From a virus, in the IMG/VR virus record IMGVR_UViG_3300027861_000229, positions 1-21,099 of that record: a DNA stretch of 21,099 nt. One strand, 5' to 3'. Below the pieces are notes generated by a model. The model had not been told where the DNA came from, did no database searches, and saw nothing but the letters and a program-made list of their open reading frames with translations. Both the position numbers and the translations under genes were made by a program. Positions 3,111 to 20,772 of this stretch are shown here, piece by piece (positions within the stretch are counted from its first letter, which is position 1; each line of letters starts with the position of its first letter).

Positions 3111-3833
3111 ATGCCTATAAACAGATATTTATTAGCCAAAGAGAAAGCCTTTACAAATACTATGTATAGGTTTTTTGTGAAAAGTAGAAAAGAAGTACAA
3201 GCATTACTAAGGAAGCAAGATACACAAAAAGACTTTAATGGTGATTTGAATAAATTGCTAGAAGAAATAATGTTGTGAGCTGCCTTGATCGTATCAAATA
3301 AAAGTAAACCAGTATTAGTAAAATGAACAAAAGAAACTATTAAAATAAATCCTAACTTTGCAATTAACTGGGAATTAAGAAACGACCCAGCAGTTTCATA
3401 TCTAGACCACCTAGTAACAATACATAGCTCAAATTATTTAGAATGAAGCATAGGACATACTACATATACAAGAATTACAAAACTAGTCAATAACTGATTA
3501 AGTGCATGATTGTCATATACAGAGATAGCAAAAGACATAGAGAAACTAGACCCAATTGTGTTTAGTAAAAATAGAAGTAAAATGATAGCAGTTGCAGAAT
3601 TATGAACAGCTTACGAGCAGTGAAAATTTATGCCAATGCAAGATTTGAAAGATAAATGAGAAATAGTATTAAAAAAATGGCTTACAGTAAATGATGAAAA
3701 AGTAAGGCCAGAACATAGTAAAAACCAATCAGACTGATATATACCCTTAGATATTCCATTTAGTTGAACACAAACAAAAGTAGCTCCAGCTCCACCAAAC
3801 TGTAGATGTTCACTTATATATAAAGTAATATAA
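3111..3833 (+). CDS. Head morphogenesis protein, Mu F / SPP1 gp7-like
   Basis: 240 aa. The C-terminal domain ends with KVAPAPPNCRCSLIYK, carrying the Pro-Asn-Cys-Arg-Cys element that is the hallmark of the Mu gpF-like head morphogenesis family. It is preceded by VRPEHSKNQSDGYIPLD, which fits the conserved R-x-x-H box. Upstream, YTEIAKDIEKLDPIVF and RSKMIAVAELGTAYEQ match the helical core of the family. In known phages this protein is a minor head component encoded just after the portal and needed for making infectious heads; the same order holds here, with a 3-bp gap. It lacks a fused ADP-ribosyltransferase or other effector domain, so it is the minimal version. The start ATG sits 3 bp after the portal stop. 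Confidence 0.88.
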
Positions 3834-3839
3834 AATATC

Positions 3840-4016
3840 ATGACAAGAGTTAAGAAAAAGAAATTTTTTGAAATACACGATATAAGTTTCAATGAAGAAG
3901 TTGAAGACTTATATAATAGTGGATGGACTCTAGATGAAATTAAAGAATGAAAAGAATATATACAAGAAAATTATAATAAGGAAGTGAAAAACTTTAGAGA
4001 AAGTTTATTAAATTAA
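3840..4016 (+). CDS. 58-aa hypothetical head-region protein
   Basis: 58 aa, very basic N-terminus (MTRVKKKKFFEIHD) followed by an amphipathic helical region with the phrase YNSGWTLDEIKEGKEYI. It contains a single UGA glycine. The protein lies between the Mu F-like protein and the prohead protease, 6 bp after the former. I do not recognise a family. The helical turn WTLDEIKEG could be a small DNA-binding or protein-contact motif, but this is only a resemblance. Reading frame, position and A-rich start context support that it is a real gene. Confidence 0.6.
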
Positions 4017-19206: not shown

Positions 19207-19506
19207 ATGAGAAATAAAAAGAATAGATGAAACTCCAGACATCACAAGATACCAAAATGTGAATGATGAAGCATGCACTATGATAATTTAATCGCACTGA
19301 ATAAATATAGACATAGGGCATTACATATCCTTTTTGATGAAAACGGCAAAGCTACGATGCCACATAGACAAATAGAGATACATTTGAGCATGATGTGAAA
19401 AGCAATCATAACAGAAGTCCACGATGAGATGCAAGCAATTATTGACAACTACTGAATGGATATGTATAACCCAAAATGTCACCACAAAAAAAAGAGAAGA
19501 TATTAA
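19207..19506 (+). CDS. Small HNH-like protein
   Basis: 99 aa, rich in His and Lys. The segment SRHHKIPKCEGGSMHYDNLI near residue 10, followed by RHRALHILF, follows the H-H-x-I-P-x-x-x-G-G-x-x-x-x-x-N-[LI] ... H-x-x-[LF]-H-x-x-F pattern of small HNH-fold proteins that I know from Patescibacteria and their mobile elements. Such proteins are nuclease-like; in phages HNH proteins often help terminase cutting. The gene is the last of the late series, 1 bp after the peptidase stop, and is followed at once by a strong terminator. Whether it is an active nuclease is not shown. Confidence 0.6.
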
Positions 19507-19518
19507 CTTCTCTTTTTT
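19488..19518 (+). terminator. Strong intrinsic terminator closing the late operon
   Basis: AAAAAAGAGAAG at 19488-19499 pairs exactly with CTTCTCTTTTTT at 19507-19518 around a 7-nt loop that contains the UAA stop of the HNH-like gene (19504-19506). A further T-rich stretch follows. The A-rich left arm makes it work in both directions. Confidence 0.9.
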
Positions 19519-19621
19519 ATTTTTTAACTCTACTTTCATATCTACAAAACTCAACTCACTCTGGAATAGTCAAGGCTCATATAATCTTTTTATTTTCTTT
19601 TTTAGAGATAATTTAATAAAA

Positions 19622-19675
19622 ACAAAGAGTTGACATGTGTTAGCAGTCTTGATACAAAATTTATACAAAGAGTTG
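19622..19675 (+). repeat. Direct repeat ACAAAGAGTTG at both -35 elements
   Basis: ACAAAGAGTTG occurs at 19622-19632 and 19665-19675, 43 bp apart (about four helical turns). The last three bases of each copy are the start of a -35-like hexamer. Two such sites in phase could bind a regulator that covers both promoters. Confidence 0.6.
19630..19658 (+). promoter_or_regulatory. Promoter-like element P1
   Basis: TTGACA (19630-19635) is a perfect -35 box. At a 17-nt spacing lies TACAAA (19653-19658), four of six matches to the -10 consensus. It lies in the gap after the late terminator and points toward the early genes. Confidence 0.6.
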
Positions 19676-19700
19676 CAATAATTATAAAAGAGTATATACT
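19673..19700 (+). promoter_or_regulatory. Promoter-like element P2
   Basis: TTGCAA (19673-19678) and TATACT (19695-19700) are separated by 16 nt, with four and five of six consensus matches. Transcription would begin near 19707, which is the A of the leader-peptide ATG, so the leader message could be leaderless. Confidence 0.6.
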
Positions 19701-19706
19701 ACATAT

Positions 19707-19745
19707 ATGAATATTTGCATCTCAGACAGCAAGTATTTATACTAA
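19707..19745 (+). CDS. Putative 12-aa leader peptide of an attenuator
   Basis: The frame encodes MNICISDSKYLY and ends with UAA. Its codons 5 to 8 cover the left arm of the antiterminator hairpin. A ribosome on it would mask that arm and favour the terminator; without a ribosome the antiterminator could form. It holds no glycine, so it would not sense UGA decoding directly. Too short to prove by coding statistics. Confidence 0.4.
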   Translation: MNICISDSKYLY

Positions 19746-19771
19746 GCATGAGCTATAATATTGTCTGAGAT
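19719..19771 (+). promoter_or_regulatory. Antiterminator-like hairpin
   Basis: ATCTCAGACA (19719-19728) and TGTCTGAGAT (19762-19771) are perfect 10-bp inverted repeats. The right arm occupies the loop of the following terminator hairpin and shares its first stem base, so the two structures exclude each other. A small nested hairpin (AGTAT/ATACT) lies between the arms. Confidence 0.6.
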
Positions 19772-19785
19772 ATTATAGCTTTTTT
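19751..19785 (+). terminator. Attenuator terminator before the early genes
   Basis: AGCTATAATA (19751-19760) pairs with TATTATAGCT (19771-19780), followed by six T residues (19780-19785). The 10-nt loop is the right arm of the antiterminator. The stem is AT-rich but perfect. It lies 19 bp before the first early gene, so a transcript must pass it for that operon to be expressed. Confidence 0.75.
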
Positions 19786-19803
19786 ATATACTAAAAAATA
19801 CAT

Positions 19804-20025
19804 ATGGAATTTAAATTCAAATGGATTACAGAAATAATTAAATCAGATAATTGAAATGATTGTATAAAACTTACTGTGAAATGAGATAAAGAAAGAATAT
19901 ATTATTGACAAAAAGCAGTTTGAAAAGCTAAATCTTTAATACCAATTATATGATGAAAAGAATATGAAAGAATGCTAAAATTAAAAGAATATACTGATAA
20001 ACAATTTTTAGTTCTTAATAAATAA
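19804..20025 (+). CDS. 73-aa hypothetical early protein
   Basis: 73 aa, very basic. The first half looks like a two-strand unit (KFKWITEIIKSDN, then CIKLTVKGDKERIYYG), and the second is helical (KEYERMLKLKEYTDKQF). Six of the glycine codons are UGA and none is GGN. I recognise no family. As the first gene after the attenuator and before the replication initiator it may be a regulator or an early host-takeover protein, but nothing in the sequence shows which. Confidence 0.6.
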
Positions 20026-20028
20026 ATT

Positions 20029-20772
20029 ATGAAAGAAACATTCTACTTCTCACATGATTATAATGTAAGAACAGATGATAAAATAAAAAGAATGATCAGA
20101 AAAAATTGAATGGAATGATACTGAATCTACTGGGCTTTAATTGAAGACTTATATTATAATGCAGAAGCAATGCAATTGGATTGCGATGGCATAGCATATG
20201 ATTTGAGAGTAGATGAAAAAAAGGTAAAAAGTGTAATAGAAGATTTTTGATTATTTATAATAGAAAAAAATACATTCTACTCACAATGAGTATTTGAAAG
20301 ATTAGAACAAAGAAATACAAAATCAGCTAAGGCAAGGGAAAATGCTAACAAAAGATGGAATAAAAAAAATACTAATGGAATGCAGTCGCAATGCAATCGC
20401 ATAAAAAATGAATGCAAACCCAATGCTATAAAGGAAAGGAAAGGAAAGGAAAGTAAAGTAAATATAATAAAAGAAAATATAAAAGAAAAAAATACACAAT
20501 TAATAAACAATAATAAAATAAAATTATTAGATACTATAGATCAAGCAGAAATAATACAAAAATATAATATAACAGAAACAGAACTATCTGAAGAAGTTGA
20601 AAAATTTATAGAATATCGGACAGAGCCAAATGAGAAATGAAAGCAAAGATACCAATTTGAAAAAACCTTTGATCCAAACAGAAGATTAGCAACTCGGTTG
20701 CGAAACAATAATAAATGGCAAAAAACTTTAACAAATAACAAAACACCAAGATGAATATGAATAGTTGAATAG
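20029..20772 (+). CDS. Replication initiator with DUF4373-type N-terminus
   Basis: 247 aa. The N-terminal domain has YFSHDYNVRTDDKIKRMIRK, then GMEGYGIYWALIEDLYY at residues 27-43, and IAYDLRVDEKKVKSVIEDFG. This is the DUF4373 (Lin1244/Lin1753-like) winged-helix pattern seen in phage and plasmid replication proteins; the glycines G27, G30 and G32 are all UGA. A low-complexity basic linker (NAIKERKGKESK) follows, and the C-terminus has a LSEEVEKFIEYRTEPNEKGK unit and ends with RLATRLRNNNKWQKT, a pattern also common in initiators. It should bind the origin and recruit host replication proteins. The DNA of the linker carries iteron-like repeats and an AT-rich tract. Its glycines are mostly UGA (8 of 11), showing that early genes are recoded too. 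Confidence 0.8.
20379..20427 (+). repeat. Iteron-like AATGCA repeats inside the initiator gene
   Basis: AATGCAGTCGCA (20379-20390), AATGCAATCGCA (20390-20401), AATGCAAACCCA (20411-20422) and a partial AATGC at 20422 are spaced by 11, 21 and 11 bp, that is near whole helical turns. The first two differ at one base. A further AATGCAA lies at 20169. They sit in the linker-coding part of the initiator gene. Confidence 0.6.
20428..20530 (+). other. Purine-rich then AT-rich tract, possible unwinding element
   Basis: Four tandem GGAAA units (about 20433-20452) are followed by an almost pure A/T stretch. With the iterons just upstream this repeats the layout of the lambda origin: initiator sites inside the initiator gene, then an easily melted region. 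It is coding DNA for a low-complexity linker, so composition alone is not proof. Confidence 0.45.

Follow-up and report, generated by a model that had tools for sequence, protein, structure and literature searches.

A kissing-hairpin terminator in the leader of a phage replication operon, probably an unrecognised RNA switch

That plasmids control their replication initiators by RNA is textbook knowledge; we found no described counterpart in double-stranded DNA phages. In ColE1, RNA I and RNA II meet through 7-nt complementary kissing loops, and loop identity sets specificity. Known kissing complexes show that fully paired 7-nt loops can coexist with both stems. PK-repBA promotes translation, and a separate antisense RNA counteracts it. 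For the guanidine-IV riboswitch, it has been proposed that a kissing loop joining the first hairpin to the terminator hairpin puts steric strain on the linker, which makes the terminator harder to complete (PMC7736828, PMC11611296).

The leader described here has features of several such systems. Like guanidine-IV (GGAM-1/mepA), it has two hairpins side by side, and the second is an intrinsic terminator located a short way before a start codon. With pT181/pIP501-type antisense attenuators it shares a terminator in the leader of a replication initiator and recognition by kissing RNA (PMC3753616, for pT181). It resembles ColE1 in its 7-nt complementary loops, whose identity would set specificity, and PK-repBA (RF01089, the IncB/IncI rep leader pseudoknot) in that an upstream hairpin has a loop complementary to an element further down, ahead of a replication gene.

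Our window, the whole stretch of 21,099 nt that was analysed, is a virus record of 21 kb; it contains a terminase gene (Pfam) and further structural-looking genes. The leader lies between the preceding genes and an operon made up of a 73-aa ORF, a Lin1244_N (PF14297) gene and a 115-aa ORF. Folding of the transcribed strand shows that positions 19707-19785 form two adjacent hairpins, HP1 followed by HP2, of which HP2 is the intrinsic terminator. The features are as follows.

19630-19658, plus strand: weak promoter-like pair TTGACA, 17 nt, TACAAA, read from the sequence (the P1 implied by the first-pass annotation)
19673-19700, plus strand: predicted promoter P2, TTGCAA, 16 nt, TATACT, from a consensus scan
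19707-19740, plus strand: HP1, 12-bp stem 19707-19718/19729-19740, in both the minimum free energy (MFE) and centroid folds
19707-19745, plus strand: 12-codon ATG frame, MNICISDSKYLY, from the sequence
19719-19728, plus strand: loop 1, AUCUCAGACA, complementary to loop 2
19750-19781, plus strand: HP2, the terminator hairpin, 11-13 bp
19762-19771, plus strand: loop 2 with closing bases, UGUCUGAGAU, complementary to loop 1
19780-19785, plus strand: U6 tract of the intrinsic terminator, read from the sequence
19804-20025, plus strand: 73-aa ORF (code 25), first gene past the leader, no Pfam match
20029-20772, plus strand: Lin1244_N (PF14297) replication-initiation-like protein, code 25, Pfam match

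The -10 box of P2 (TATACT, 19695-19700) places the expected start at about 19707, at HP1, which is also where the 12-codon frame begins, as the first-pass annotation had described. The consensus scan did not list the upstream pair at 19630-19658. A direct repeat, ACAAAGAGTTG, occurs at 19615-19632 and 19658-19675, with copies 43 bp apart that overlap both promoters, and is a possible operator for an early repressor or activator. Further upstream, a strong terminator-like hairpin at 19488-19518 (AAAAAAGAGAAG...CTTCTCTTTTTT) closes the preceding operon at an HNH-like ORF (19207-19506); being symmetrical, it may act in both directions.

The first-pass annotation had read this region as two perfect 10-bp inverted repeats that exclude each other. 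Both repeats are indeed perfect, and the right arm of the first (19762-19771) does lie in the loop of the second, followed by six T at 19780-19785. The second repeat, however, is 11 bp long (19751-19761/19770-19780), and a third, the HP1 stem, had been missed. Because this 12-bp stem forms, the two arms of the first repeat are the two hairpin loops, AUCUCAGACA in HP1 and UGUCUGAGA(U) in HP2, and their complementarity is perfect over 10 nt (19719-19728/19762-19771). In the predicted fold, pairing of these distant arms is therefore a loop-loop (kissing) contact. Mutual exclusion was thus only half right, since with HP1 formed the contact is possible beside the terminator stem. We found no further mismatch-free copy of TCTCAGACA anywhere in the window.

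The MFE structure of 19707-19790 is the two-hairpin fold, at -24.1 kcal/mol (z = -4.1), and none of 200 shuffled sequences was equally stable; HP1 folded alone gave a z of -3.8. A forced antiterminator fold reached -15.8 kcal/mol, so that in the window the complete terminator is favoured by about 8 kcal/mol, and blocking 19719-19728, the folding check suggested with the original reading, changed nothing. The balance is different for an RNA ending just past loop 2, in which long-range pairing (-15.3) beats HP1 alone (-10.3); therefore, the contact can form before HP2 is finished. The isolated loop duplex has an energy of -13.8.

By an uncomputed estimate from simple A-form geometry, the 9-nt linker cannot span fully formed HP1, kiss and HP2 together; therefore, some basal pairs must open. 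On this model, which hairpin opens at its base would decide the sign of control. In the window the base of HP1 is A-U/G-U and weaker than that of HP2, so it may open first and weaken the antitermination effect. In many relatives, internal loops separate an upper kissing hairpin of HP2 from a short G-C base, a split that would suit a switch. One subfamily has a small third hairpin in the linker (L030:3940-3962, L050, L061 and L069) with covarying arms (TTTAGA..TCTAAA, TTTACA..TGTAAA), which would shorten the linker and possibly tune the kiss.

To determine how widely this arrangement occurs, we took relatives of the Lin1244_N gene from IMG/VR and GTDB genomes; all GTDB matches were in Bacteroidota. 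Many uncultivated Bacteroidota phages have the same layout upstream of the PF14297 gene, namely promoter, HP1, kissing terminator and start codon. A strict search required a 7-nt word and, 28-75 nt downstream, its exact reverse complement, each of them flanked by stems, as well as a U-rich tail. It recovered the element in 95 of 233 distinct upstream regions and in 0 of 1165 dinucleotide shuffles, close relatives being included. A folding search over the 400 nt upstream of the Lin1244_N gene, also with close relatives included, detected it at 61 of 165 loci, compared with 5 of 324 shuffled regions and none of 163 downstream controls. Only about 40% of sampled relatives thus show the element. 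At least one element-bearing member was found in 29 of 60 Rep types (clusters at 85% Rep identity), some of them labelled by eye. These types are scattered over a poorly resolved Rep tree; the row at the shortest path from the window bears the element, with a placement that is not well supported.

Among near-whole phage records, a kissing terminator was located at the rep leader in nine of nine, and one of these had a further weak candidate of 6 nt, rich in A and T. L069 is an exception, with apparently two kissing leaders that have different loops: GTACGAG/CTCGTAC before a GIY-YIG-like ORF (586-680) and, seen by eye, CTGCCA/TGGCAG before the rep gene (about 2085-2195). Four rep leaders, those of Porphyromonas phage005b, Flavobacterium phage 1/32, a human gut phage clone and Enterococcus EF62phi, did not score as carrying the element. 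A covariance model, R1, built from one subfamily only, matched the source MAG alone among 395 Bacteroidota genomes; as far as this subfamily goes, the element is therefore not a common prophage feature.

The surroundings of the element are also conserved. Of 58 distinct elements, 53 have a Bacteroidota-type TAnnTTTG box at the position that corresponds to P2, ending 8-24 nt (median, 9) before loop 1, against an expectation of 4.6% for shuffled DNA; across the 58 the U tract mostly starts 7-13 nt ahead of the next ATG. From the positions of box and U tract, the expected RNA is 75-90 nt long, with little beyond the two hairpins. A terminator hairpin with its U tract thus lies between promoter and first gene, as in intrinsic-terminator attenuators, and the gene downstream (PF14297) is one for replication initiation, as in pT181/pIP501 attenuators.

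The two-hairpin kissing structure is well supported by comparison of related sequences. In one subfamily of 14 aligned leaders, all 25 pairs were kept in every sequence. The 7-bp kissing helix was 100% paired, with four of its seven pairs changed on both sides. The covariation score of the whole structure was 0.292, against a shuffled mean of 0.097, and none of 500 shuffles scored as high. An alignment with L152, L154 and L052 put the HP2 arms out of register, and these were left out of the pair counts. The HP1 stems covary in relatives as well. When hairpins were picked blind to their loops, 9 of 27 distinct loop pairs were complementary over at least 6 nt (permuted mean, 0.74; maximum, 5). 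Compensatory changes had been proposed as a check on the original reading; among homologues, covariation keeps the pairing of the distant arms and is not confined to the terminator.

About 20 different loop pairs were seen in all. The strict search alone gave 15 words, the folding search added four (CTGCTAT, CTACTAC, CTTCTAC and GTCGATG), and others were found by eye (CAACGAC, TATCGAC, CTTCGAC, GGTCGAG and a 9-nt pair in L109). Seven loci with the window's own loop pair, from an exact scan of viral contigs, were not scored as terminator-linked kissing elements by the general scans. Of the 15 words, 14 have U at position 2 and 12 have A at position 6; positions 3-5 vary. Both loops have changed in a compensatory manner between L135 and L352 (GTCGGAT versus GTAGGAT, 98% identical outside the loops) and between L055 and L356 (GTCGTAT versus GTCGGAT, 97%). 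L321 (GTGGGAG/CTTCCAC), beside L326 (GTGGAAG/CTTCCAC), looks like a G-U intermediate. In leaders 80-95% alike, the loops differ about 1.7-2 times more than the rest, a ratio that ignores gaps and is suggestive only.

Given these results, our preferred reading (probability of roughly 0.55) is that the leader attenuates transcription of the replication operon and that the kiss is in steric competition with formation of the full terminator. Transcription from the predicted P2 would begin at HP1, and loop 1 would pair with loop 2 as it emerges, before RNA polymerase has finished HP2. The stiff kissing complex would stretch the linker and disfavour closure of the terminator base, so that some polymerases read through into the replication genes. 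The first-pass annotation had offered a small RNA as an alternative; here an RNA of about 80 nt would be the natural by-product of the terminator. With both loops on it, this RNA could also work in trans: terminated transcripts would accumulate with genome number, and their loops would pair with nascent leaders, remove the cis kiss and favour termination, damping expression of the replication protein in a copy-dependent feedback. With their hypervariable centres, the loops would tie this control to the phage that encodes it. We infer both the direction of control and the trans action, the latter from loop diversification alone; such diversification is to be expected if recognition must be specific to the phage's own replicon, and cis-only coevolution is also compatible with it. 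More tentatively, the leader could be a self-contained replication thermostat. A sense loop and its own antisense loop would be in one molecule, terminated copies would meter replication in trans, and the loop triplets, diversified across Bacteroidota phages and into the code-25 phage, would serve as phage-specific identity tags (incompatibility types).

The same anatomy would serve a control of opposite sign, in which the kiss stabilises the terminator as a clamp, giving a stable, self-locked RNA of about 80 nt, and read-through rises only when the kiss is broken. The two-hairpin fold is indeed the most stable state, and fully paired 7-nt loops are compatible with both stems. Yet guanidine-IV, the closest studied kissing-terminator RNA, works the opposite way (PMC7736828, PMC11611296), and a second covarying hairpin would be superfluous for an ordinary terminator; we therefore regard this reading as unlikely. 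Alternatively, the kissing fold might gate ribosome access to the replication gene, with or without a transcription stop. Loop-loop RNA contacts control the rep genes of pMU720, ColIb-P9 and R1 at translation (PMC3753616), and the start codon lies within about 12-24 nt past HP2 in most relatives. Control at translation is nonetheless quite improbable: nearly all elements have terminator-typical U tracts, and in the window 24 nt separate the first ATG from the start of the U tract, with the rep gene some 250 nt off. That the loops are simply inverted repeats adjoining the replication gene and bound as DNA by an initiator or repressor (an origin or operator), with no role for RNA, is very hard to accept, as the covariation of stems and loops is that of a kissing RNA made from the transcribed strand, the promoter and the U tract are oriented to match, and inter-loop spacing differs between families. 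Least credible is the first-pass model, a classical attenuator with exclusive stems and ribosomes on the 12-codon leader peptide as the switch: arms and frame are present and the long-range helix is transiently favoured, but that model overlooked the HP1 stem, its antiterminator loses by 8 kcal/mol, and its upstream frame is not conserved, since only 22 of the 58 distinct elements have an ATG frame over loop 1, and their peptides and stops are unrelated. This lack of conservation indicates that the frame is probably not a leader gene. What stands of that model is a conserved terminator between promoter and early (replication) operon, together with covarying distant arms; those arms are the loops of two compatible hairpins rather than exclusive terminator and antiterminator stems.

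Proteins of the PF14297 type are labelled "replication initiation protein" in Porphyromonas, Lactobacillus and Enterococcus phages. In L030, the gene just upstream of the leader (3506-3889) encodes a DnaA C-terminal (Bac_DnaA_C) domain and adjoins the Lin1244_N gene, and an upstream gene in L173 (about 2650-2900) resembles it by eye; the two genes likely form a two-protein initiation module. Relatives of the window's Rep (20029-20772) reach 54-58% identity over the N-terminal part. It is 51-58% identical over that part to Reps of standard-code phages, and some standard-code phages with a Rep akin to it are without the leader element. The window's open frames require TGA to be read as glycine (table 25), and the conserved MEGYGIYW motif of its Lin1244_N protein has TGA where relatives use GGN. 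Sequence comparison thus suggests that the replication gene may have been exchanged across hosts of different genetic codes. Predicted Gracilibacteria phages are matched by Bacteroidetes CRISPR spacers (PMC10746230), which makes exchange between Gracilibacteria and Bacteroidota phages plausible. A search for other code-25 phages by the TGA-for-Gly pattern of the rep motif gave three accidental matches only, and no relatives came up with the terminase as query; among code-25 phages, we found the element in the window alone.

The leader probably acts as an RNA switch, so far unrecognised, by which phage replication is metered. Rfam 15 had nothing at the gathering threshold in the window or 19 relatives, and hits below it were at chance level only. 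The PK-repBA model scored 12 bits on the minus strand, with no coding-strand match (gathering score, 45), and we found no conserved guanidine-IV ligand sequence or Rfam match to it in the window or the relatives tested. In blastn searches with the element regions, neither INPHARED phages nor PLSDB plasmids showed similarity at the element, and open-licence papers gave no description of it. The parts are those of known RNA attenuators; what the searchable literature does not describe is a kissing pair, self-complementary and hypervariable, placed at a replication gene of a phage. This structured RNA family absent from Rfam, possibly common to phages of hosts with different genetic codes, is compact and combines strong covariation and many natural loop pairs with a direct tie to a replication gene. 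It makes RNA control of phage copy number directly testable, and its loop pairs are ready-made candidate orthogonal attenuators. In guanidine-IV, conserved bases bind guanidine and the genes are mostly exporters, whereas here the gene is for phage replication, the loop centres are hypervariable, the predicted pairing comprises 7-10 Watson-Crick pairs, and no conserved ligand site is seen. PK-repBA is a translation activator with a separate antisense RNA, in contrast to the single transcript that carries both loops here. ColE1 controls a primer RNA in trans, whereas this is a cis pair beside a terminator, in which every change needs two mutations. Finally, in pT181 and pIP501 the partner is a separate antisense RNA, while the phage leader has both complementary loops in one transcript.
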